DNA from: Pseudomonadota bacterium
Lineage (GTDB): Bacteria; Pseudomonadota; Gammaproteobacteria; Steroidobacterales; JBCBZW01
NCBI GenBank assembly: GCA_039815145.1
Contig: JBCBZW010000032.1
Coordinates: 1 to 47,495, forward strand
Direction of reading: 5' to 3'
DNA length: 47,495 bases
Position numbers and translations under genes: made by a program. Below, in pieces: positions 11,643 to 46,717 of the stretch. The stretch's first letter is position 1, and every line of letters starts with the position of its first letter. A model generated the notes under the pieces. The model was not told the origin of the DNA. It was given only the letters and a program-made list of their open reading frames with translations, and searched no databases.

Positions 11643-12290
11643 CTAGAGGTTGAACGCACCCTTGGTGCCCACCACCAGCATCTCGATCGCGAGCGCGCAG
11701 AGCAGCACGCCGAGAATCCGGGTCAAGGCACCGACCACGCTATCCCCGAGCGCTTTCAACAACGGAATGGCGAGCAGGAAGATGGCGAGCGCCAGGACCA
11801 TGTTGGCCACCACCGCCGACAGCACCACCGCATGCGCGAGCAGCCCCGGGTGCTCGGTCATGAACACCATCACGGAGACGATCACGCCCGGCCCCGCCAG
11901 CATGGGAATACCCAGGGGGAACACGGACACATCGGGGGCGGGATCCGAGGCCTCCTGAGCGTGCTCCTGCACGTCGTGGGCACGCTCCTCACGGCGTTCC
12001 GTGCGCTTCTCGAACACCATCTCCAAGGCGATGAGGAACAACAACGCGCCGCCGGCCATACGGAACGAATGGATGGAGATGCCCATATGGTCGAGGAGCC
12101 AGCGCCCGCCCAGGGCGAAGGCGAAGATCACCATCGACGCCACCAGCACCGCCACCACCGCCGTACGACGGCGATAGGCCGCGTCTCCCGCGGCGGTCAA
12201 GGTCACGAACACGGGCGACATGCCGATCGCGTCGATCAGCAGGAAGAACGTGACGAAGGCACTGACGAAGAGGTCGATGGGCGATTCCAT
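11643..12290 (-). CDS. MarC/UPF0056 family membrane protein
   Basis: 215 aa with six predicted membrane segments: about 8-26, 42-63, 72-90, 122-145, 150-172 and 185-208. Typical MarC features are the N-terminal FVTFFLLIDAIGMSPVFVTLT and the second-half repeat FPLGIPMLAGPGVIVSVMVF. A charged loop of about 35 residues (RTERREERAHDVQEHAQEA) separates the halves and is longer than I expect for the family. The role of MarC proteins is unsettled; an antibiotic-resistance role was withdrawn for E. coli. It lies 204 bases downstream of the thioredoxin-like gene's start region, on the same strand. Confidence 0.92.
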   Translation of the reverse strand: MESPIDLFVSAFVTFFLLIDAIGMSPVFVTLTAAGDAAYRRRTAVVAVLVASMVIFAFALGGRWLLDHMGISIHSFRMAGGALLFLIALEMVFEKRTERREERAHDVQEHAQEASDPAPDVSVFPLGIPMLAGPGVIVSVMVFMTEHPGLLAHAVVLSAVVANMVLALAIFLLAIPLLKALGDSVVGALTRILGVLLCALAIEMLVVGTKGAFNL

Positions 12291-12390: not shown

Positions 12391-14334
12391 TTAGAACGTC
12401 TGCGAAGTGACGTTCGAGGTCTCACAAGCACTCAGATCCACGGCCTGGGCCAGGATCGTGCGACCCGCGGCGCCGCCGGGGATCGTGCGCGTGATGGTAG
12501 CGTTACCAGCGCCGTCAGCGCGGGTGAAGCCGATCAGGCGAGCGTTGGCCAGATCAACGGTGGTGGAGCAAGCGCCGAGCGTGATCGCCGTGGAGCCGGC
12601 TGCGCCGCCGATGTAGAGCACAACACCGCTGTTGGCTGAGCCGTTGCTGGTGTCGAAGTCGTTGTCGGTACCAGCAACACCCGGATCAGCCGGAGCCAGG
12701 GTGAAGTCGGTGGGGGTCACGCCGGTGCAGCTCGGGAAGTTCCAAGCACACACACGGGTGTTCCACTCGAAGCTACCGGTCTCGGCCACGTACTCCTGGA
12801 AGGTCCAGAAGGTGCAACCGTCGACGGGGTCGAGGCTCGTGGAGGAGTAGTCACCCCAGCGGCCGCCGCCACCGGTCTGCGAACCCGTACCCTGCACACA
12901 CTCGACTTCCTGCTGCACGGTGCCAGCCGGATCGGTGGTCTCACGACCGGTCACGTAGACGCTCGTGAAGTCGCCGTTGCCGCCACGGGTGTAGGCCAGG
13001 CCGAGGTTACCCACGGTGTCCAGCGCCACGGAACCCATCCAACGCTCGAAGCCATCGTTCGGCGCCTGGGTGCCGGTGTCGATGATCGAGATGTTGTTGT
13101 AGTCGTCAACGTCGAGGATGGCCCAACGCATGCCGCCGCGGTCGCCACCGGCGTCCACCGTGTGCGACATAGCCAGCTGGTGCTGACCGTTGATCACAGC
13201 GTGGTTGGAACGGTACATGGTGAAGAACGCCAGGGTGTCGAGGTTGTCACCACCGGGCTGCGGCACGTCGTTCAGGTTGTCGTCGAAGGCCGGAACGGAG
13301 ACGGTCGGCAGCGTGGTGAGGGTACCTGCACCCGGGAAGTTCTCGCAGAACTCGAAGAAGCGGTAGGTAGCAGGTGCTTCAGCCACGGAGAACAGCGGGC
13401 AGGCGTCGGCCGGCGCGTCGGAGAGCGCCTGCACGGAACCCGGCTGGAGGCCGTCGTAGGTTACGAAACCACCGGGTGCGACCACGGTGGTGAAACCAGC
13501 GGCGCCACCAGCGAGCATCGCGTCGCGATCGAACAGCACGGCAGTGATGTCACGCGCGAAAGCGGGGCTGCCCTGCGGGATGAAGTTACGACCGGTGTAG
13601 GTGTAAGCGCTCTGAGAACCGTCGGCGCTGGCCCAAACGCCAACCTTCGGGTAATCGTTGAACGCGTCGGGCTCGACCACGAACTCGTACAGGGTGTACG
13701 GACCGGCCGGATCTTCACCGTCGGAGATGGCGAAACACTGCACCCCGGAGAACGGAGCAAACTGGTTGAACACCCAACGACCAACGTCTTCGTCGTAGAT
13801 GATGATCGGGTCGCCGTTGTTGTTGGCTTCACAAGCACCGCCGAAGCCGGCCCAGAAGCTGTTACCAGCGAAGGGACCGCCGACGAGGTTGCCGGCCTTG
13901 TCGTAGTACGACCAGGTCAGGTTGATGTAGCTCACGACGAAGTCGCGACCCACGTCACCGTTGGTGTCGGGCGGCTGGATGCGGAAGCCGAACAGCGCGC
14001 TGTTGTCGTCGCTGGACGGGCCGTCGAAGCTCAGGCTCAGGGCCGGAGCGAGCACGGGGTTGTGAGCGGGATCGACCAGGGCGTCCTGCACCAGGTCGGT
14101 CAGCTGGCGAGAGAAGGTGGTCTTGCCGAGCTGGTTGGGAACAGAAGCGGGCGCGCCGCCGCTGCGCTGCGGGCCCTGGAGAGCCTGCAGGTCCTGAATC
14201 GTCATCGCACCGGTGTGAGCGTGTCGCGAGGACATTCTCAGGTCGCCGGTGGTGGTGTCTGCCGCGAACGCAGCGCTGGTGCTGAGCGCGAGTGCTGCGA
14301 TGCCCGCAGAGGCTGCAATGCCGTAGCGGTTCAT
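12391..14334 (-). CDS. Large secreted protein of unknown function
   Basis: 647 aa with a clear signal peptide (residues 1-24, cleavage after AFA). The mature protein is acidic, rich in Gly, Asp, Asn, Thr and aromatic residues, with few Lys, as expected for an extracellular beta-rich protein. Segments such as PPDTNGDVGRDFVVSYINL, DPIIIYDEDVGRWVFNQFA, NDYPKVGVWAS and GGRWGDYSSTSLDP read like blades of a beta-propeller. About ten cysteines are spread through the mature part and could form disulfides. The last 100 residues form a separate Gly/Ala/Thr-rich beta domain. The gene is monocistronic, with its own promoter, AGGGGGT ribosome site and strong terminator, suggesting high expression. No catalytic motif was recognised. 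Confidence 0.85.
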   Translation of the reverse strand: MNRYGIAASAGIAALALSTSAAFAADTTTGDLRMSSRHAHTGAMTIQDLQALQGPQRSGGAPASVPNQLGKTTFSRQLTDLVQDALVDPAHNPVLAPALSLSFDGPSSDDNSALFGFRIQPPDTNGDVGRDFVVSYINLTWSYYDKAGNLVGGPFAGNSFWAGFGGACEANNNGDPIIIYDEDVGRWVFNQFAPFSGVQCFAISDGEDPAGPYTLYEFVVEPDAFNDYPKVGVWASADGSQSAYTYTGRNFIPQGSPAFARDITAVLFDRDAMLAGGAAGFTTVVAPGGFVTYDGLQPGSVQALSDAPADACPLFSVAEAPATYRFFEFCENFPGAGTLTTLPTVSVPAFDDNLNDVPQPGGDNLDTLAFFTMYRSNHAVINGQHQLAMSHTVDAGGDRGGMRWAILDVDDYNNISIIDTGTQAPNDGFERWMGSVALDTVGNLGLAYTRGGNGDFTSVYVTGRETTDPAGTVQQEVECVQGTGSQTGGGGRWGDYSSTSLDPVDGCTFWTFQEYVAETGSFEWNTRVCAWNFPSCTGVTPTDFTLAPADPGVAGTDNDFDTSNGSANSGVVLYIGGAAGSTAITLGACSTTVDLANARLIGFTRADGAGNATITRTIPGGAAGRTILAQAVDLSACETSNVTSQTF

Positions 14335-14899: not shown

Positions 14900-15943
14900 T
14901 CAGCGAGCGTCGTCGTTTTCGATCACGCCGAGCTCTCCCAGGAGGTAGCGCTCCAGCAGCCGGCGCGTCACCCCATTTACCCCTTCCTCGAACATCACGC
15001 TCTCCAACTGCTGCTGCACCGCAGCCAAGGTAGCCGGCGGATCCATCGCGTGAGCCGCAGCCAAGGCCTCTCGCACCACGCCAGGGGAGTTCGATCCCAG
15101 CATCGGCAGCACCACCGGAAGGTCCTTCGTATCGTTATTCGCCGCCAGCCCCTTCAGGGCAGTGACGGCCAGGAGGGCTTGCGCGCTCACCAGATCCAAC
15201 GTCGGGCCCGATCGCAGCAACACCTTGCGGTGTTCTTCGTGCAACCACGGGGCGGTGGGGCCTGCGGGGAACTTCGCCGCCGCATCCATCAGGAACTGAC
15301 GCAGCTGGACGGGCAGATCGGGCTGCGACAAGGCGGCCTTGATCACGTCGATGTCCTCGTCCTCGAAGACGGGGCCGAGCTCGTTGCGCACGTAGAGTTC
15401 TTCGATCGCGAGCGCCTGGTTGCGCACACCGCCGTCGGCGATCAGGGTCAACACCGCGTCCAAACGCTCTCGGTTGCTGGGCTGGTCATCACCCCGGGCA
15501 CGGTTGAACAAGAAGCGCAGGGCGGGAGTGTCCGGGAAGACGGTCCAGACGCGTCCACCACGCAGCTTCAGCGCTCGCGGCCCCTCCGGATCGAGGAACT
15601 TCGCGTCGCGGAATTGATCGTTGGACCCTACGCGCGTAAAGGCGACGAGATAGCGTCGACCGATCACCAGATCACCGAACGCGCCCTCCTCCGCGCGCAC
15701 GGCAAACTCCTGCTCTTCCGCCGTGCCACTGAGCAGCGCATCCACCCGCAACTTGATGTGCGTGAGGTTCGGCTTGTCCAGGATGGTGGCGGCCACCACG
15801 TTGTTGGTGCCGCGGGTGAGCTCCACCGAGGGCGGATCCACGGGCCGCGCCGCGTGCGCGGCCAGCAGCGGGAGCAACGCGAGCAGAGCGCCTAGCCAGC
15901 GGGCGCGAGGGGAACGGGCGCCCTGGAATTCTTGCTTGTTCAT
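14900..15943 (-). CDS. Secreted protein with helical repeats, unknown function
   Basis: 347 aa with a signal peptide (basic start, hydrophobic 17-29, cleavage after AHA near residue 31). Residues about 36-150 form a beta-rich domain (VVAATILDKPNLTHIKLRVDALLSG, GDLVIGRRYLVAFTRV). Residues about 155-340 consist of helix pairs such as LDAVLTLIADGGVRNQALAIEELY and VSAQALLAVTALKGLAAN, reminiscent of HEAT-like repeats. The gene has GAGG ten bases before the ATG. Its function is not recognisable; an envelope scaffold or binding role is only a guess. Confidence 0.78.
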   Translation of the reverse strand: MNKQEFQGARSPRARWLGALLALLPLLAAHAARPVDPPSVELTRGTNNVVAATILDKPNLTHIKLRVDALLSGTAEEQEFAVRAEEGAFGDLVIGRRYLVAFTRVGSNDQFRDAKFLDPEGPRALKLRGGRVWTVFPDTPALRFLFNRARGDDQPSNRERLDAVLTLIADGGVRNQALAIEELYVRNELGPVFEDEDIDVIKAALSQPDLPVQLRQFLMDAAAKFPAGPTAPWLHEEHRKVLLRSGPTLDLVSAQALLAVTALKGLAANNDTKDLPVVLPMLGSNSPGVVREALAAAHAMDPPATLAAVQQQLESVMFEEGVNGVTRRLLERYLLGELGVIENDDAR

Positions 15944-16389
15944 TTTTCAGTTGCCTCGAGCTAGCAGGACATAAAGTCCAGAGGGTTGGCGGCTTGCGGG
16001 CAGATCGGGGCGCGATGGTATCACCCCGCGGCGGGCGGCACGGGGTACCGGCCGTCAGTGTTGAGCCTCAGCCTTTGAGGTGCGGGGAGCGCATTTGGTT
16101 CGGGCGAGGAATGCAGTGCCTCAACTGAGCGGGCCCCATGCACGAGGCCATGGCACCACTGCGTTTGCAGCGACCGCCGAGCATGGCGCTCTAGAACTTG
16201 TGCGCCCCGCCACTCTCAGCGCCGCTACCCGCATATCGTGAACCCCAGACCGGAGACGCGGAGGCCGGGCCGGTTGGCAACAGGCCACAACACGCATCTT
16301 GGTGCTGCATTGCCAAATGACACCGGTTGGGCGTTGGGCGAATCATCATCGCAGAGTCTTCACCTCGCCGCGGGCACAGGACGCACCAC
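15944..16389. other. 446-base divergent intergenic region, no gene
   Basis: Lies between the start of the minus-strand 14900-15943 gene and the start of the plus-strand 16390 gene, so it should hold promoters for both, but I see no good -10/-35 pair. Small inverted repeats are GGAC-ATAAA-GTCC (15967-15979) and CCTCA-GCCTT-TGAGG (about 16066-16080). All open frames here lack ribosome sites and family features. Confidence 0.6.
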
Positions 16390-17100
16390 ATGCGCAAACG
16401 GATTCTTCTCGCCAGCCTCGTTGTCACCGCAATGGCAGCACTCAGTCACGCCACCACGCCCACCAACGCCATGTTGCAGGCGAGTTCCCTGACGATCTCC
16501 CCCGGCGACGTGCAAGCGGCTATGACCCCACAGGAGCGCCAGCGATTCGACGAACTCAACCGCAAGTACCGCGCGCACCAGCAACAAGTCAGAGCGATCA
16601 GCGATCCTGATGTGGCCGCAACGATTCGCGAGAAGCTAGAACAACTGAAAGACCAACGCGATCGCGAGTTCCGCGTTTTCAGAGGCCTCGGCAATCAAAC
16701 GGTCCAGACTTACGGTCGACCGCCACCCACGGCCGCGGAGATACTCGCTATCGTCATCGGCGCGCGGCGCAGCGGCGGCGACGGTGTGCTCTACCCTCAC
16801 TGGGAGCGCGCCGTGCGGCTCGTGAACAATGAGGTGCTCAACGGCTCTGTTCGCGGCTCGAACTCGCCGCCTGAGTCGGGTTCCAGTGGCATCCCTGCCG
16901 GCCCCGAAGTGCGGGCTCCCATTCGTTTCCAGGACGGCGCTGCCGTCAACACTAATCCGGTCTGGAATGCGGACGGACAGAAATGCGGTCCTCGCCCCGC
17001 GGACGCAGGACTCGTCTGCAAGTGCGGCCTGATGGCGAATGACGTGTTCGGTGCCGTGGCCGCAGCAGGGGGTAAGGACTGTCAATGGGTGAAGCCTTGA
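16390..17100 (+). CDS. Secreted protein, unknown function; first of an overlapping pair
   Basis: 236 aa from ATG 16390 (AGGA nine bases upstream; conserved signal peptide MRKRILLASLVVTAMAALSHA). The mature protein begins with helical, charged sequence (MTPQERQRFDELNRKYRAHQQQ, IREKLEQLKDQRDREFRVF, about 45-100), likely a coiled coil. A Gly/Pro/Ser linker follows (about 160-175) and then a C-terminal part with four cysteines (CGPRP, CKC, KDC). The base composition is less G+C-rich than its neighbours. Its end overlaps the next gene by 16 bases, so the two are co-translated. I do not recognise the family. Confidence 0.75.
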   Translation: MRKRILLASLVVTAMAALSHATTPTNAMLQASSLTISPGDVQAAMTPQERQRFDELNRKYRAHQQQVRAISDPDVAATIREKLEQLKDQRDREFRVFRGLGNQTVQTYGRPPPTAAEILAIVIGARRSGGDGVLYPHWERAVRLVNNEVLNGSVRGSNSPPESGSSGIPAGPEVRAPIRFQDGAAVNTNPVWNADGQKCGPRPADAGLVCKCGLMANDVFGAVAAAGGKDCQWVKP

Positions 17101-17900
17101 TCGGCGGCACCGGCAAGGCACTCAGGCAAGCAGGGGTGCTCCTCGTCCTCGCGGGTCCAGCGGTACTCGCACAAGAGACGGCGACGCAGATGTTCTCCGC
17201 GCCGGAAGTGAGGGGCGTGGTCAGCTTCTTGTCCGTTCAAGGCCGTAGCGGAAGCGAACGTTTTTGCTGGCTAGAGCGTGTGTGCTCGGCAGGCGCCGGG
17301 CTCGGACAGGGCAACGGCTGTGAGGGCACCTTGCTCACGTGCATGAGCGAAGTGGAAAGCGAAGCGAAGGGCGAACCGGTGGACTTTGGCACCCGCACCG
17401 CCCTGGCGGCCTGCAGATCGCTGCAAGCAGCCTTCACGCCCGCCGCGCGAGCCCTCATCGCCGGGCCTCAGGGATGCGGCGCCAGTCCCCCGCCGAATGC
17501 TGAGAAGGCCACCTTGACGCGGACGGAGGCCGAGTGCCTGCTCGAGCGGAGTTGCTCCTACGGAGCTGCCGGTTCAGATGAGCGCCGTCGTTGCGAGCGG
17601 GACATACGTGTCTGCATCCAGGACCTTCGCGGGTTGGGCATTCGAGCGCGCAGCGCGTGCCGGCGGTTCTCCAAGGCGCTGTTCGAACCCGATGCGACGG
17701 AAGCGGCTGCAAAGTTTGGATGCCGACGTCAGGCCTCGGGCAGCATACGCAACGTATGGGCGAGCCCCGCGTTGCAGCAAACCGCATCACGCGCAGTCGG
17801 AGGCGGCGCGGCGCCGGAGCAACCGCCACCGAAGGATTGGGAAGAGCAGGTGAATCGTCTGCAACGTCAGAACGAGTCCGACGACTTTGAGGACTTCTAG
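17085..17900 (+). CDS. Secreted protein with two tandem six-cysteine modules, unknown function
   Basis: 271 aa with a signal peptide (hydrophobic about 15-28, cleavage near VLA-QE). All twelve cysteines fall in two copies of one module. Module 1: C61-x5-C67-x11-C79-x6-C86-x23-C110-x20-C131. Module 2: C151-x5-C157-x12-C170-x6-C177-x14-C192-x20-C213. The modules also share sequence (CWLERVCS versus CLLERSCS). The C-terminus is Pro-rich, then charged and acidic (NRLQRQNESDDFEDF). It overlaps the preceding secreted protein by 16 bases. I know no family with this layout; disulfide-stabilised helical modules are a reasonable inference. Confidence 0.78.
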   Translation: MGEALIGGTGKALRQAGVLLVLAGPAVLAQETATQMFSAPEVRGVVSFLSVQGRSGSERFCWLERVCSAGAGLGQGNGCEGTLLTCMSEVESEAKGEPVDFGTRTALAACRSLQAAFTPAARALIAGPQGCGASPPPNAEKATLTRTEAECLLERSCSYGAAGSDERRRCERDIRVCIQDLRGLGIRARSACRRFSKALFEPDATEAAAKFGCRRQASGSIRNVWASPALQQTASRAVGGGAAPEQPPPKDWEEQVNRLQRQNESDDFEDF

Positions 17901-17929
17901 GCGATCCTGTTTGTTATTGACCGTGTCCC

Positions 17930-18013
17930 GACCCAAGCTGGTGGCGCTCATCCGCCTGTGATACCAGGCGTAGCGCCCGCCAGCCCCGTTGGGTCTCGAG
18001 CATGGGGGCTCGA
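17930..18013. repeat. Nested hairpins between convergent genes
   Basis: GACCCAA (17930-17936) pairs with TTGGGTC (17989-17995); inside it GCTGGTGGCGCT pairs, with bulges, with AGCGCCCGCCAGC (17972-17984); and inside that CGCCTG (17953-17958) pairs with CAGGCG (17965-17970). Directly after comes TCGAGC-ATGGGG-GCTCGA (17996-18013). The block fills most of the gap between the 17900 stop and the 18029 stop, so it probably ends or insulates both transcripts. No T-run is present. Confidence 0.6.
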
Positions 18014-18028
18014 TGGTTCGCTAACGAG

Positions 18029-19012
18029 TCAGGCGAAGAAGTCGAGCTCCGTGCCCACACCCTGGGCCACGGCCCGCTCGTAGGCCAAGGCCGCCACGGC
18101 CACATCCTGAATGGCGAGGCCGGTGGAATCGAACACCGTGATGTCCTCCTCGTTGAGCCGCCCGGCCGTATCGCCGGCGAGCACGGCGCCGAGGGTGCCG
18201 GCGATATCGCTGCTCGCCAGCTCCTCGCGGGCGAGGGGCACGTTGACCTCGCCGCTGCCTTGCGCTTGCACCACGTCGTCCACAAAGACGTGGGCATCGC
18301 GCAGGATCTGCGTCTGCAGCTCCTGCTTACCGTGGGCATCAGCCCCCATCGCGTTGATGTGGGCCCCCGGCTGCAACCACTCCCGCCGCACGAGGGGCTC
18401 GCGCGAGGGCGTCGCTGTGCACACGATGTCGCAGGCCGCCGCCGCCTCCAGGGCGACCGCTTCCGCACCTACGGAAGCCGCAAGTACCTGTGCCTTCTCC
18501 TCGTCCCGGTCCGTGACCAGGATGCGCATCGGCGTCCGCGCGGCCAGCACAGCACTCAGCAAATAGGGCGCCTGAGCCCCACAACCGATGATGCCTACCG
18601 TACGGGCGTCGCCGCGCGCGAGCACGCGAGTGGCCAAGCCGGCGGACGCACCCGTACGCAGGGCGGTGATCAACGTCGCATCCATCATCGACAGGAGATC
18701 GCCGTTGGCGGGGTCGCTCAGCAGATAGACACCGCGCACGGTGGGCAGATGAAAGCGAAGCGGGTTGTTAGGGTGCGAGTTGATCCACTTCACCCCTGCC
18801 CGCTCCCCCACCAGCGCGGGCATCGCGCGCAGATCGCCCATGTGATTGGCGAACTCGAGGTATACCTTCGGTGGCATCTGCGTTTGCCCGCGTGCGTGCG
18901 CCACGAGCGCTGACTCCACGGCCTCCATCACGGCGGGCATGTCGATCAGCTTGGCCACCTGGGACTTGGTCAGCAGGCGCGTGCCTGGCCCGGTCGATCG
19001 CGCCATCGTCAC
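18029..19012 (-). CDS. Ornithine cyclodeaminase/mu-crystallin family NAD-dependent enzyme
   Basis: 327 aa. Enzymes of this family oxidise or cyclise amino acids or reduce imino acids (ornithine cyclodeaminase, alanine dehydrogenase of archaeal type, ketimine reductase). Motifs: PPKVYLEF near 47, [12 protein letters not shown] (substrate-binding lysine), [17 protein letters not shown], the dinucleotide loop [17 protein letters not shown], and [26 protein letters not shown] follows the pattern of the family's C-terminal domain. The GTG at 19012 overlaps the thyA stop (GTGA); an ATG two codons later is also possible. Exact substrate cannot be told by sequence alone. Confidence 0.87.
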
Positions 19013-30181: not shown

Positions 30182-30562
30182 TCAGCCGGAGGACGAACCG
30201 CTACTGGCCTCGCCGTCCTCGCTCTTGGCCTTGTTGGCGGCGCCGCCCGTCGACCCGGGGAGGCAGCCTTCGGCACATCCGAGATAGGTCACCAGGCACT
30301 GGCGGGAACAACTGTTCTGGGCATCGGTCTCGGCCAGGCCGAAGCACCCGCGCTGGCAATTCACCTGCGTGTTCTCACACACACGCTGGCAGTCGCGCTG
30401 GCGAGGACCGCTGCCGCCGCCCCAGGATTTGATCTGGGCGATCATCAACCCGAGCGGATCCGAGCCAGGCTCAGCGACAGACGTGGCGTCCTCGGCCAAC
30501 GCCAACGGGCTCGTTAGCGTGCAGAGCGCGGCGACCACGAGGGTGACGAAAAACCGTTCCAT
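30182..30562 (-). CDS. Small secreted protein with duplicated twin-CX3C motif
   Basis: 126 aa with a signal peptide (1-23, cleavage after ALA). The mature part contains eight cysteines in two copies of the same spacing: C58-x3-C62-x6-C69-x3-C73, then after 11 residues C85-x3-C89-x6-C96-x3-C100. Each copy looks like a helix hairpin closed by two disulfides, in the manner of twin-CX3C proteins such as small Tims, but with a shorter connection. The tail is Gly/Ser-rich and probably disordered. GGAGAG six bases upstream sets the ATG. I do not recognise a family; function is unknown. Confidence 0.8.
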   Translation of the reverse strand: MERFFVTLVVAALCTLTSPLALAEDATSVAEPGSDPLGLMIAQIKSWGGGSGPRQRDCQRVCENTQVNCQRGCFGLAETDAQNSCSRQCLVTYLGCAEGCLPGSTGGAANKAKSEDGEASSGSSSG

Positions 30563-40976: not shown

Positions 40977-42050
40977 ATGCCCCTGGTCTCCCATAATCCC
41001 CTACCCACCTTCGCCCGCCTCGCGCGCGAGGGCGTCACCGTGGTCTCGCGGGCGCAGGCGGAACAGCAGGACATCCGCGAGCTGCACATTGGCCTGCTCA
41101 ATCTCATGCCCGATGCAGCCCTGGAGGCCACCGAGCGCCAGTTCCTGCGCCTGATCGGGGAAGCCAACCAGATCGCTCAGTTCTACCTGCACCCGTTCAC
41201 CCTGGAGAGCGTCGAGCGCAGCCCCCGCGCCAAAGCGCACATCGAGGCCCACTACGCCCACTTCGATACGATGGCCGAGGCGGGCCTCGACGCGCTGATC
41301 ATCACCGGTGCCAACGCGACGAGACGCGATCTCTCCAAGGAACCGTTCTGGGCTGAACTCACGGCGGTGTTCGACTGGGCCTTGCAACACGTCACCTCGA
41401 CCCTCTGCTCGTGCCTCGCCACCCACGCGCTGCTCCAGCACGCGCACGGCGAGGTGCGCCAGCCCCTGGGCTTCAAGCGTTGGGGGGTGTACTCGCACAC
41501 GGTCAGCGACCGCACACACCCCTTGGTGAGTGGCGTCAACACACGCTTCGATGTCCCCCACTCGCGCTGGAATCACATCTCGCGGGACACCTTCGAAGCC
41601 CACGGCATGGCGGTGTTGGCGGCGAGTGAGGAGGGTGAGGTGCACCTCGCCGTGAGCGGCGATGGCATTCGTCAGGTCTGCTTCCAGGGGCATCCGGAGT
41701 ACGACGCGATCACCCTGCTCAAGGAGTATCGTCGCGAAGTCGCGCGCTGGGTGGCGAAGGAACGATCCGATCCACCGCCCTTCCCCGAGCGCTACTTCTC
41801 CCCGCGCAGCCGCGCCATCCTGCTCGAGTACCAACGACGTCTGGCGACACCTACGACGAACGTTGGCCTGGAGAGCTTCCCCGAGGCGCTACTGGTGCCC
41901 GCCCTGCACAACAGCTGGCACGACACGGCGGAAGCGATCATGGACAACTGGATCGGTCTGGTCTACCGCCTCACCAACGTGGAGCGCGGCCGCCCATTCG
42001 CCGAGGGCGTAGATCCGACGGCGCCGCTCGACTGGAGGGCCCAGGCCTAG
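40977..42050 (+). CDS. metA: Homoserine O-succinyltransferase (MetA family)
   Basis: MetA activates homoserine for methionine synthesis, using succinyl-CoA or acetyl-CoA. 357 aa from ATG 40977; the frame is open much further upstream inside the preceding gene, but conserved sequence begins at MPLVSHNPLPTFARL. Class I glutamine amidotransferase-like fold: IRELHIGLLNLMPDAALEATERQFLRLIG, the nucleophile Cys in STLCSCLATHALLQ, FKRWGVYSH, FDVPHSRW, and the His in CFQGHPEYDAITLLKEYRRE. Acyl donor specificity is hard to read by sequence. The stop overlaps the paaZ stop on the other strand through a shared CTAG. Confidence 0.92.
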   Translation: MPLVSHNPLPTFARLAREGVTVVSRAQAEQQDIRELHIGLLNLMPDAALEATERQFLRLIGEANQIAQFYLHPFTLESVERSPRAKAHIEAHYAHFDTMAEAGLDALIITGANATRRDLSKEPFWAELTAVFDWALQHVTSTLCSCLATHALLQHAHGEVRQPLGFKRWGVYSHTVSDRTHPLVSGVNTRFDVPHSRWNHISRDTFEAHGMAVLAASEEGEVHLAVSGDGIRQVCFQGHPEYDAITLLKEYRREVARWVAKERSDPPPFPERYFSPRSRAILLEYQRRLATPTTNVGLESFPEALLVPALHNSWHDTAEAIMDNWIGLVYRLTNVERGRPFAEGVDPTAPLDWRAQA

Positions 42051-44101
42051 TGGGCCGCTGGCTGCTCGCTGTCCACCAGCGTCAGCACCGTGTAGCTGGC
42101 GGCGATCTCGCCGTGCTGATTGCGCAGGTCCACCGCCCAGCGCACCTCGCCATAGCCTTGGCCGTAGCGCATGGTCTTCTGCTCGCAGGTGAAGTGCACG
42201 GTGATCTCATCGCCGAAGTACACCGGGGTGAGAAACCTGAGATCCTCGAGGCCGTAGTTGGCCAGCACCGGCCCGGGCGCCGGATCGACGAACATGCCGG
42301 CGGCCGCGGAGACGAGGAAGTAGCCGTGGGCGACGCGTTCGTCGAAGAAGGGGTTCGCCTTGGCCGCGTCGCTGTCCATATGCGCGTAGAAGCGATCGCC
42401 GCTCAGGGCGGCGAAAGCCTCCACGTCCTGTTCGGTGATCTTGCGCGGGCCGACCACCAGGGACTCGCCGACACGTAGCGCTTCGAAGCGCTTGCGGAAG
42501 GGGTGAAGACCCTCGCTATCCTGATGGGTGGCGGCGCCACGTACGTAACGACGGCACACGGCGCTGAGCACGTCCGGCGAGCCCTGCACGGCCGCGCGCT
42601 GCAGGTAATGCAGCACGCCCCGCATGCCGCCTAGTTCCTCCCCGCCGCCCGCTCGCCCAGGGCCGCCGTGGATCAGGTGCGGCAGGGGGGAGCCGTGGCC
42701 CGTGGCCTCCTTGGCGCTGTCGCGATCGACCACGTAGACCCGGCCGTGCCACGCCGCCATGCCAAGAACGATGTCCGCCGCCACCTCCCGATCGTGCGTG
42801 AACAGCGACCCGACCAGGCTGCCGCCGCCCTTGGCCGCCAACGCGATGGCATCGTCCACCGAGTCGTAGGGCATCAAGGTGCTGACCGGACCGAAGGCCT
42901 CGACGCTGTGCACGGCCTCGCCCTGCAGAGGCTTTGGACAATAGAGCAAGGTGGGGGCGACGAAGGCGCCGCGTGCTGGGTCCGCGCCTTCCAATCGCGT
43001 CGGCAGCGATTGGCCGCCAAGCACCACCTCACCTTCGCGCGCCAACTCACCGATGCGCTCATGCACCTCGCGGCGTTGATCCAAGCTGACCAGGGGCCCC
43101 ATGCGCACGGCATCCAGGCGCGGGTCGCCGAGCACGGTCTTCGCCAGGCGTGCCTGCACCGCCTCCACCACTGCCTGGCAGTGGGCAGCGGGCACGATGG
43201 CGCGCCGGGTGGCCGTGCACTTCTGCCCGGCCTTGGTGGTCATCTCCCGCACGAGCTCCTTCACGTAAAGGTCGAACTCGGGCGTGCCAGGGCCCGCGTC
43301 CGGCCCCAGCACGGAGCAGTTCAAGGAATCGGCTTCCATGGTGAAGCGTACGGCGTTGTTCACGATCGCCGGTCGTTGCTTGAGCATCATGCCCGTGGCC
43401 GCGGAGCCCGTGAACGCCACCACGTCCTGGCAGGTCACGTGGTCGAGCAAGTCCCCGGCGCTGCCGCAGATCAACTGCAGGGCGCCCGGTGGTAGCAGGC
43501 CGGAGTCGATGATCTGGGCGACCAGCACCTGGGTGAGGTAGCAGGTCTGCGTCGCGGGCTTGGCGATCACCGGCATACCGGCGATCAACGCTGGCGCTAG
43601 CTTCTCCAGCAGCCCCCACACGGGGAAGTTGAAGGCGTTGATGTGGATGGCTGCGCCCTCGAGGGGCACACAGATGTGGCGGCCGAGAAAGGTGCCCTCG
43701 CGGGAGAGCACCTCCGTGGGGCCGTCCACGAAGAAGGGTTCGTCGGGGAGTTCACGCCGCGCCTTGCTGGCGTAAACGAAGGCGGTGGTGATGCCACCGT
43801 CGATGTCGACCCAGGAGTCCTTGCGTGTGGCACCGGTGGAAGCGGACAGGGTGTACAGCCCCTCCTTGCGCTCGTTGAGGTGCTTAGCCATCGCCTTCAC
43901 CATCAACGCGCGCTGGTGGAAGGTCATGCGCCGCAGGGCGGGGCCGCCGACACTGCGGGCATGCTCGAGCATGGCCGCAAAGTCGAGGCCGTCGCTCGAG
44001 ACCTGACCGACGGGTTCACCGGTGGTGGCGTCCAGCACCGCACGGGCGCTATCGCCCGGGGCGATCCAGCGATCTAGCGCGTAGCCTGGGATGCTGTTCA
44101 C
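42047..44101 (-). CDS. paaZ: Bifunctional PaaZ: oxepin-CoA hydrolase/semialdehyde dehydrogenase
   Basis: PaaZ opens the oxepin-CoA ring and oxidises the resulting aldehyde in phenylacetate breakdown. 684 aa from GTG 44101 (GAGGAG seven bases upstream). The N-terminal aldehyde dehydrogenase has E256 ([11 protein letters not shown]) and C295 ([11 protein letters not shown]) at the same numbers as the E. coli enzyme. The C-terminal MaoC-type hydratase has [22 protein letters not shown] with the expected Asp and His, then [14 protein letters not shown]. It starts 24 bases after the UbiH-UbiI gene and converges on metA. With paaJ nearby it forms a partial paa set; no paaABCDE or paaG is seen here. 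Confidence 0.95.
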
Positions 44102-44125
44102 GGATGATCTCCTCAAGTCTTCTTT

Positions 44126-46717
44126 TCAGCCCGGGGGCCGTCGGGCGAGCAGCGGTGGCACGTTGCCACTGATCCCCATCGCACGCCGGGCCAGCACGGA
44201 CTTCACCGGATCGAGACGATCCACGGCCGCGAGACCCGTGCGCCGCAGGGTGTCCACGAGCGGGTGGCGGGAGGCGAACAACCGCTTCAGGCCATCCAGG
44301 GCGGCGGCCGTCGCGAGGTTCTCGCCCTTGCGGGCGCGTTCGTAGCGCTCGAGCACGTAGTGATCGCCGATCTCCTCGCCGCGTTCGGCGGCCTCCGCCA
44401 GGGTGCCGGCGAGGGCGGCCGCGTCGAGGAACCCAAGGTTCACGCCCTGACCGGCCAGCGGGTGCACCACGTGTGCGGCGTCACCCACCAGGGCCACGCG
44501 CGGCGAGGTGTAGCGACGGGCGTGCATGACCCGCAGGGGAAACGAGGCGCGAGCACTAGTCAGTTCGAGGTGACCGAGCACGCCCTCACTGGCCTCCTCG
44601 ACCGCTCGCTCGAAAGCGTCGGGTGAGAGTTCGGACTGAAGCTCGTGCGCGTGCTCCGGCCGGGTCGACCACACGATGGAGACGCGACCGTCGGCGAGCG
44701 GGAGGAGCGCCAGAGGCCCATCGGCGAGGAAGCGCTGGCGCGCCGTTGCGCCATGGGGTCGCTCGGGCCGCAGGTGCGCGACGACCCCTGCCTGACGGTA
44801 CTCATGGGTACGGGCGGGGATGCCCGCCAAACTGCGCACGCGCGACTCAGCGCCGTCGGCACCGACCACCAGGCGGGCGCGCAGGGCCCGTCCATCGTCC
44901 AACTGCACGACGATCGCCTCGCGCGGCGTAGCCGCCGACCCGATCCCTGCCACACCCGTAGGCGCCAGCAGATTCACGTTGCGCTCGCTATGTAACACCT
45001 CGTAGAACGCGCTGAGCAGGGCGGCATTGTCGATGATGTAGCCGAGGCAGGGTTCAGCGAGGCGGGCGCAGTCGAACTCGATCCGCGCCTCACGCGCGCT
45101 CGCCCCCTCCCACACTTCCATGCGTTCGTAGGCGATCAGCGAGCGTGGATCAGGTCGCGCGCGCACGAGTTCAAGCAGGCGCCAGGTGGCGTGGGAGATG
45201 GCGGAGACGCGCAAACCGAACTCGAACGCTCCCACGGGCCCAGCCAAGGGCGAGGCCGCGGCCGGCGGCGGGGCCCGATCGAGCACGGCCACGCTGAGCT
45301 TGGTGGTGTGCGCGAGCAGAGCGGCGAGGGAAGCCCCCACCAACCCACCACCGACGATGACCACGTCGTAGTCCACCGCGGGCGACGCACTCATGAGGCA
45401 CCGCCGGTAGCGGCGCGCTGCGTCGGCGCTGGTAAGGGGCAAGCCGCGGGCCAGGCGAGGTGACTTACCGCCCATGCCCATCGCATTGCGTGCGAAGGCC
45501 GACTTCGCCCCCGGCATGAGATCCAGGGCCAGAAGACCTAAGCCCCGCGCCATGCCGATCGGTGCAGCAGGTTGGGTAAACAAGCGCACTAGCGTGTCGG
45601 TAAAGGCGCTCACCTGGCCGCGGTCTTCCGCGCGCCAGCGCAGGAACGCATCGAGTAACGCGCCGCCGCCCACATCGATGAGGCCATCGGCCAAGGCGTC
45701 GGCGATCAACTCCGCCAGCCCCGCCGCATCGCGCAACCCAAGGTTGAGGCCTTGACCGGCCACCGGGTGCACGCCGGTGGCTGCGTTACCGACCAGGGCG
45801 ACGCGCGGCGGCAGCAGATCATCGCGTGCACGGCTCAGCCACAGGGGAAAGGCGGCGCGCGGCGAGGTGTGGGTTAACCGACCGAGTCGAAAACCGAAGG
45901 CCTCCTGAAGCGCTTCGAGAAACTCAGCATCATCCAGCGCCAGTAGGCGCGGCGCATCATCGCGCCACACGGTCCACACCACGTTGCTGCGCCCCTCCGT
46001 CAGCGGCAGTAAGGCGAGGGGGCCGCTACCAATGAAACGTTCGTAGGCGACGTTCTCATGGGGACGCTGGGTGGTGACGTTGGCGACGATCGCCTGCTGC
46101 CGGTAGGACTGAAGATCCGCTCCAACGCCCAGCAACCGACGCACGCTCGAGCGCGCACCATCGGCCGCCACCAACAGTTGCGCCCGCAACTGCACGGGCG
46201 ACTCCTCAGCGTCGACCGCGAGGGTAATCGTCGCCGCCTCGAGATCCGCATGGGCCGCGGTGACCTGCGCCGGCGCCCACAGGTCCAACTGACCGGCGGC
46301 GGGCGCCTGGTCGCGTTGGCCCAACGCGCTCATGCGCGTCCAAAGTCGCTGCTGAAGATCGCTGTTGTGCACCACCTGGCCGAAGGCGTTGACGCCTTCG
46401 GCCTCGGCGTTCAGGCGAGTGCTGCCGAACTGTCCGCGATCTGAGACATGAATATGCCGGATGGGCACGGCCGCCGACTGCAGCTGGGGCCAGACGCCGA
46501 GCGTCTCGAGAATCCGCTGGCTACCTAAGGCGAGCGCTGTGCAGCGCGCTTCGTGAACGGCGCCCTGCGCCCTGTCGGCGGGCTCCTGCGGCGGCGCCAT
46601 GGCCTCCACGACGGCCACTCGCAGATTGAGGGGGGCCAGGGCAAGAGCGAGGACGCTGCCGACGGCGCCGCCACCGACGATCACCACGTCGTAGGCGCGC
46701 GCGTCGCGCGCGTTCAA
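44126..46717 (-). CDS. UbiH-UbiI fusion: two ubiquinone-biosynthesis flavin monooxygenases in one ORF
   Basis: 863 aa containing two complete FAD monooxygenases. The first (1-441) is UbiH-like: GGGAVGSVLALAL, LLVAADGARSSVRRLLG and VALVGNAATGVHPVAGQGLNLGLRDAAGL, where GNAA is typical of UbiH. The second (about 442-863, beginning MSASPAVDYDVVIVGGGLVG) is UbiI/UbiF-like with VVGADGAESRVRSLAG and VALVGDAAHVVHPLAGQGVNLGFLDAAAL; GFLDAA favours UbiI. The start is TTG at 46717, overlapping the pepP stop (TTGA). In most relatives these are two genes. The junction ATG at 45394 overlaps a TGA in the +1 frame, so a one-base change could have joined two formerly overlapping genes. No strong ribosome site precedes 45394. 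Confidence 0.88.
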   Translation of the reverse strand: MNARDARAYDVVIVGGGAVGSVLALALAPLNLRVAVVEAMAPPQEPADRAQGAVHEARCTALALGSQRILETLGVWPQLQSAAVPIRHIHVSDRGQFGSTRLNAEAEGVNAFGQVVHNSDLQQRLWTRMSALGQRDQAPAAGQLDLWAPAQVTAAHADLEAATITLAVDAEESPVQLRAQLLVAADGARSSVRRLLGVGADLQSYRQQAIVANVTTQRPHENVAYERFIGSGPLALLPLTEGRSNVVWTVWRDDAPRLLALDDAEFLEALQEAFGFRLGRLTHTSPRAAFPLWLSRARDDLLPPRVALVGNAATGVHPVAGQGLNLGLRDAAGLAELIADALADGLIDVGGGALLDAFLRWRAEDRGQVSAFTDTLVRLFTQPAAPIGMARGLGLLALDLMPGAKSAFARNAMGMGGKSPRLARGLPLTSADAARRYRRCLMSASPAVDYDVVIVGGGLVGASLAALLAHTTKLSVAVLDRAPPPAAASPLAGPVGAFEFGLRVSAISHATWRLLELVRARPDPRSLIAYERMEVWEGASAREARIEFDCARLAEPCLGYIIDNAALLSAFYEVLHSERNVNLLAPTGVAGIGSAATPREAIVVQLDDGRALRARLVVGADGAESRVRSLAGIPARTHEYRQAGVVAHLRPERPHGATARQRFLADGPLALLPLADGRVSIVWSTRPEHAHELQSELSPDAFERAVEEASEGVLGHLELTSARASFPLRVMHARRYTSPRVALVGDAAHVVHPLAGQGVNLGFLDAAALAGTLAEAAERGEEIGDHYVLERYERARKGENLATAAALDGLKRLFASRHPLVDTLRRTGLAAVDRLDPVKSVLARRAMGISGNVPPLLARRPPG

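Follow-up and report, generated by a model that had tools for sequence, protein, structure and literature searches.

A gene on the forward strand of the window (the whole 47,495-nucleotide stretch of DNA that was analysed) encodes a protein of 271 residues whose twelve cysteines fall into two consecutive sets of six with nearly the same spacing (17085–17900, ATG start). The gene overlaps the one upstream of it, has no credible homologue in the collections searched and is absent from a congener. We propose, with a confidence that falls a little short of even, that it specifies a Sec-exported, disulfide-rich, all-helical protein in which a module of approximately 75 residues has been duplicated, that it is co-translated with a partner, and that it has an accessory role at the envelope or in contact.

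Cysteine pattern, coding status and export

The cysteines occupy residues 61, 67, 79, 86, 110 and 131, then 151, 157, 170, 177, 192 and 213, and all twelve lie beyond the likely signal peptide. Gaps of 5, 11, 6, 23 and 20 residues separate those of module 1 (Cys61–Cys131; 17265–17477, forward strand), 19 residues link the modules, and gaps of 5, 12, 6, 14 and 20 follow in module 2 (Cys151–Cys213; 17535–17723, forward strand). The remainder (17724–17897, forward strand) is a cysteine-free tail of 58 residues with an acidic stretch at its end. A previous sequence-only reading had fitted all twelve cysteines to this spacing twice, and our recount of positions and gaps agrees with it exactly. When the mature sequence was shuffled, none of 200,000 permutations had gaps 1, 3 and 5 equal together with gap 2 within 1, and six of 200,000 satisfied the conditions on gaps 1–3 alone; these are not clean probabilities, since the gap conditions were set after the protein had been seen. 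A search of all six frames for the tightly spaced six-cysteine pattern gave these two places only in the window; a laxer version adds one place on the minus strand of the window and one in locus L017.

The likeness of the modules extends beyond the cysteines. A 98-column alignment of the two has 24 invariant columns. Their local alignment scores 66, a value that full shuffling never reached in 5,000 trials (mean 28) and that was reached once in 5,000 shuffles with the cysteines held in place (mean 30, s.d. 6.3). The claim that the modules share sequence thus stands with the cysteines held fixed, which makes internal duplication of one module likely and the simplest reading of the protein.

In GC-rich DNA, a frame of this kind could be open by chance. 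Closed open frames of at least 271 codons appeared in 93 of 500 Markov sequences; long frames are common at this GC, so the length of the ORF alone is no evidence for a gene. Its low codon score and lack of homologues would also suit a chance frame. However, the score of 0.017 in the annotated frame, the best of its six, exceeds every value obtained from random sequence (−0.43 ± 0.09 for one frame; maximum −0.05 over 2,000 random sequences and six frames), and this supports coding. The resemblance of the two modules as protein, the signal-like N-terminus and a correctly placed AAGGA also argue against a spurious frame, which we regard as highly improbable. The upstream gene likewise scores best in its own frame (0.178), and both genes of this island fall below all 19 of the other window genes scored (0.26–0.79). 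The codon scores support a real but atypical gene, with codon use that is foreign or young.

The upstream gene (16390–17100, forward strand, ATG at 16390) encodes a likely exported, near-orphan protein of 236 residues with four cysteines (199, 210, 212 and 231). The two genes share 16 bases, and AAGGA lies six bases before the ATG at 17085, an arrangement that fits translational coupling. Residues 1–29 of the 12-cysteine protein (17085–17171, forward strand) form a likely Sec signal peptide with a hydropathy maximum of 2.6 at residue 18 and a cleavage site placed by eye. In both proteins the N-terminus is a basic, hydrophobic stretch (best 12-residue hydropathy 2.6 and 2.5, respectively), followed by an AxA-like site without a lipobox, as judged by eye, and both are probably exported.

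Relatives and predicted structure of the module

Profile searches gave no family for the 12-cysteine protein. Membership was decided by the curated cut-offs for Pfam and NCBIfam and by E ≤ 1 for PHROGs and PADLOC; NCBIfam, PHROGs and PADLOC yielded no matches, and the best Pfam hit, CATASP (E 0.036, 14.4 bits against a cut-off of 29), covered the tail only. Neither the protein nor the module profile matched any PDB sequence at E up to 10. A strong match to a known cysteine-rich family, the result that would have spoken against a new module, was looked for, and none was present in the profile libraries or among the PDB sequences. A literature search, with most subscription papers outside its scope, found no description of this cysteine pattern. 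The exact spacing, the likeness of the modules and these empty profile and PDB searches support the original proposal of a secreted two-module protein without a described domain.

We also searched genome samples of increasing breadth, drawn from the order, class and phylum; these partly overlap, so the counts from them are not additive. In the order sample, 102 of 396 genomes matched the protein at E ≤ 10, and at E ≤ 0.001 only G344 (6.2e-4) and G051 (7.3e-4, with internal stops) remained besides its own genome. The G344 match keeps one of four covered cysteines and lies within a 636-residue frame; that in G051 keeps two of four and has stops inside it. Both were treated as chance; phmmer gave E-values of 2e-5 to 2e-4 here, which overstate significance because the database comprised 703 frames preselected as matching. 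With the module profile, four of 369 genomes in the class sample matched at E ≤ 0.01, the source genome included; the other three (0.0011–0.0049) were short pieces, two of them with stops, and were rejected. The source genome was the only one of 398 to match in the phylum sample. We found no paralogues of the 12-cysteine protein in its own genome, and apart from the two modules the module profile gave nothing under E 0.076 in that genome and the congener. Two scans each of genome_contigs (43 and 57 pattern matches) and viral_contigs (1 and 115) yielded no confirmed relative; seeded by short peptide patterns, these scans reach close relatives only. Plasmids gave 10 records at E 7–8 and phages four at E 2, none of them credible. 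Within the collections searched, then, the protein is an orphan with no credible homologue.

The upstream protein is similarly isolated. At E ≤ 0.001, five of the 396 order genomes matched it, its own included, and the four foreign matches are weak and partial (5.4e-5 to 6.5e-4). None was retained: those in L033 and L034 fall in a sensor-like N-terminus (by eye), that in L035 is antisense to a 522-residue frame, and tblastn at E ≤ 1 did not recover L032. Its best profile hits, FBPase_glpX in Pfam (E 0.2) and TraB in NCBIfam (E 0.1), are both far under the cut-off.

From its single sequence, AlphaFold gave a poor, though mostly helical, model of the full-length 12-cysteine protein (pLDDT 44.8). 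A model of module 2 (residues 140–220, 81 residues) was all helical, with pLDDT 72.4 and pTM 0.55, from an alignment of two rows that both come from the same protein, module 1 being the second row; we place modest confidence in a helical module. The predicted helices span positions 7–21, 25–44, 48–55, 57–61 and 65–71 of the model, with cysteines 12 and 18 on helix 1, 31 and 38 on helix 2, 53 on helix 3 and 74 just past the last helix. The pairs 12–38 and 18–31 have midpoints of 25 and 24.5, both at the turn, and this coincidence fits two clamps across an antiparallel hairpin. The model thus suggests disulfides C1–C4 and C2–C3 as clamps, plus C5–C6, in each module; the even number of cysteines and the identical order of the two sets also count for a disulfide reading. 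Each module would then be a helical hairpin clamped by Cys1–Cys4 and Cys2–Cys3, with Cys5–Cys6 pinning two short helices. Two such rigid modules joined by the 19-residue link could offer a binding surface outside the cytoplasm, for which the probably exported product of 16390–17100, thought likely to be translated together with the 12-cysteine protein, would be the most likely partner. We hold both the binding function and this partnership with low confidence. Foldseek searches with the module model returned nothing above noise (best E 5.3 in the PDB and 2.0 among viral models).

The cysteines might instead bind a metal such as copper or zinc, making the protein an exported metal store or chaperone. 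CX5C/CX6C is, to our knowledge, not a usual metal motif, disulfides are favoured in the exported compartment, and no gene for copper or other metal resistance was recognised among the eight neighbouring genes scanned. The pairing of the twelve cysteines on helices is what recommends this alternative, along with the ability of reduced twin-CX3C proteins to bind zinc (PMC3759932). We consider metal binding improbable and favour disulfide-clamped modules.

The variable segment carrying the gene pair

Both genes lie within a variable segment (16070–18030) that is absent from G001, the congener and the one other genome of the same family compared. As defined by blastn of the window against L050 and by the junction sequences, the same flanks enclose 1,961 bases in the window and 41 in G001, which lacks both 16390–17100 and 17085–17900. 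The flanks are 83.5% identical to G001 up to position 16069 and 82.8% from 18031, and by eye homology extends approximately 10–18 bases further inward on each side. At 64.6%, the segment is lower in GC than the window as a whole (67.0%). To its left lie a MarC-family gene (11643–12290), a minus-strand gene for an exported protein of 647 residues with 10 cysteines (12391–14334; nothing in Pfam at E ≤ 1, and a single sub-threshold match in NCBIfam) and a gene of 347 residues that matches HEAT weakly (14900–15943); to its right comes an ornithine-cyclodeaminase-family gene (18029–19012), then thymidylate synthase and Lgt. A single contig of G001 carries both the cyclodeaminase-family protein (93% identity) and MarC (96%).

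The edges of the segment (16015–16080 and 17958–18030) both align to the same site in G001, with scores of 31 for the left (0 of 1,000 shuffles) and 20 for the right (1 of 1,000). They are not alike when compared with each other (score 12, equalled in 367 of 1,000 shuffles). In this two-genome comparison, the edges would suit an insertion that duplicated its target site and equally a loss from G001, so that either direction is possible. The window contains no tRNA or Rfam family, and the repeats in 15900–18100 are short and unconvincing. The upstream region also matches 35 bases at another place in the genome (E 0.0019); these fall inside a queE-like coding frame, and the match was set aside. 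The window holds another variable segment at 42051–44132, where approximately 2.1 kb with a 689-residue frame (42047–44116) stands against approximately 0.1 kb in G001.

Between the convergent genes at the right-hand end there is a strong hairpin (17930–17995; DNA fold −27.5 kcal/mol, z −3.8; RNA fold −51.8, z −3.5). The terminator scan did not call it, because no T run follows. Gene cassettes of integrons often carry orphan genes and have attC sites with the end motif RYYYAAC ... GTTRRRY; the segment might be a cassette inserted away from its integron, with this hairpin as its attC. The hairpin does end in a proper GTTRRRY box (GTTGGGT) directly after the 12-cysteine gene, and it is the only attC-like hairpin in the window under a lax rule, itself made after the site had been seen. 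Moreover, full IntI genes over the cut-off are present in the source genome, G000 (two), and in G001 (one), and in none of 14 control genomes. The details fit poorly, however. The 5′ box, ACCCAAG, fails the RYYYAAC rule, and the hairpin measures 64 bases, against 98 and 99 for two canonical attC sites next to an integrase of the host, which end in GCCTAAC/GTTAGGC and GTCTAAC/GTTAGAC. Strict attC sites number zero in the window, the variable segment is wider on both sides than a cassette starting at 16326 or 16333, and two genes in one cassette would be unusual. On the 5′ box, the length and the lack of a strict attC, a cassette origin is not supported, and we rate it very unlikely. For a hairpin between convergent genes, a terminator-like element is simpler than attC, and this is its likely nature.

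The integron integrases themselves lie at C43:1041–1988 and C226:2062–3000 in G000 and at C9:1271–2209 in G001. The canonical attC sites (L066, 22–119 and 420–518) are on the contig of one integrase, and the apparent chromosomal integrons of both genomes are cut by contig ends.

The two genes make up an island that varies between species, which points to an accessory rather than a core role, and we would place this role at the envelope or in contact. In a more specific reading, which we hold as possible though short of probable, the module represents a new helical-hairpin domain clamped by disulfides (CX5C-x11/12-CX6C plus a C-terminal C-x20-C clasp) that was duplicated within one protein and is restricted to a single species or a very small clade; the exported fold would be a recent invention, with a second exported orphan as its companion. 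Should the module prove to be a new domain, this bacterium has made or acquired a cysteine-rich, internally duplicated exported protein that lies outside all the family libraries searched, and it would offer a compact system in which to ask how exported orphans come to fold stably. The precise presence and absence of the pair in the window and G001, respectively, makes the locus easy to study.

Comparison with known systems

The strongest functional rival, argued by analogy, is that the two genes form a competition module, in which the 12-cysteine protein would be a periplasmic immunity protein or inhibitor that neutralises a toxic partner, possibly the product of the upstream gene or else an effector coming from outside. 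A small, species-variable island of two orphan genes is what such a module might look like. The type VI immunity proteins of the Rap1a, Rap2a and Tai4 kind described in PMC3852654 are small, exported (periplasmic) and disulfide-dependent helical bundles. The Rap proteins are described there with one disulfide per subunit (PMC3852654), rather than three per module as proposed here. The 12-cysteine protein has no Pfam match at E ≤ 1 to those families, although a distant relation may exist, and no effector is recognisable beside its gene. Neither protein of the pair exceeds the Pfam or NCBIfam cut-off for an effector, amidase or immunity family, no PADLOC defence model was matched, and the upstream protein has no enzyme signature. 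We therefore judge a competition module unlikely, although less so than metal binding, and retain an accessory envelope or contact protein as the preferred reading.

The module model bears a resemblance to the small Tim and CHCH proteins (twin CX3C/CX9C), which also carry two cysteine pairs on adjacent helices. The oxidised small Tims form a helix-loop-helix with C1–C4 and C2–C3 disulfides (PMC3759932), the same connectivity that we suggest for each module. The spacing differs, being CX5C and CX6C in both modules rather than CX3C or CX9C. The protein described here would also have a third pair, C5–C6, and it is bacterial, probably exported and built of tandem modules; we found no sequence relation between the two.

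Saposin-like folds have six cysteines per helical module, with an order and spacing that differ from those of the 17085–17900 modules. In a second structural comparison, covering 16 chains, saposin A was the best match (Z 2.8, rmsd 2.9 over 49 residues); this Z-score is within 1 of unrelated rows and represents the noise level for helical models.

A further parallel lies in the same window, where a minus-strand gene (30182–30562) encodes a 126-residue protein that is likewise exported, has a cysteine pattern repeated twice (tandem CX3C-x6-CX3C-x11-CX3C-x6-CX3C) and belongs to no Pfam family (no match at E ≤ 0.1). It differs in its CX3C spacing and smaller size, and in being kept in the congener, from which the 12-cysteine gene is absent; the G001 homologue is 83% identical over 115 residues and retains all the cysteines. 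Orphan disulfide-rich exported proteins are known as a kind, and there is a fair chance that the module of the 12-cysteine protein adds a new small domain to them.
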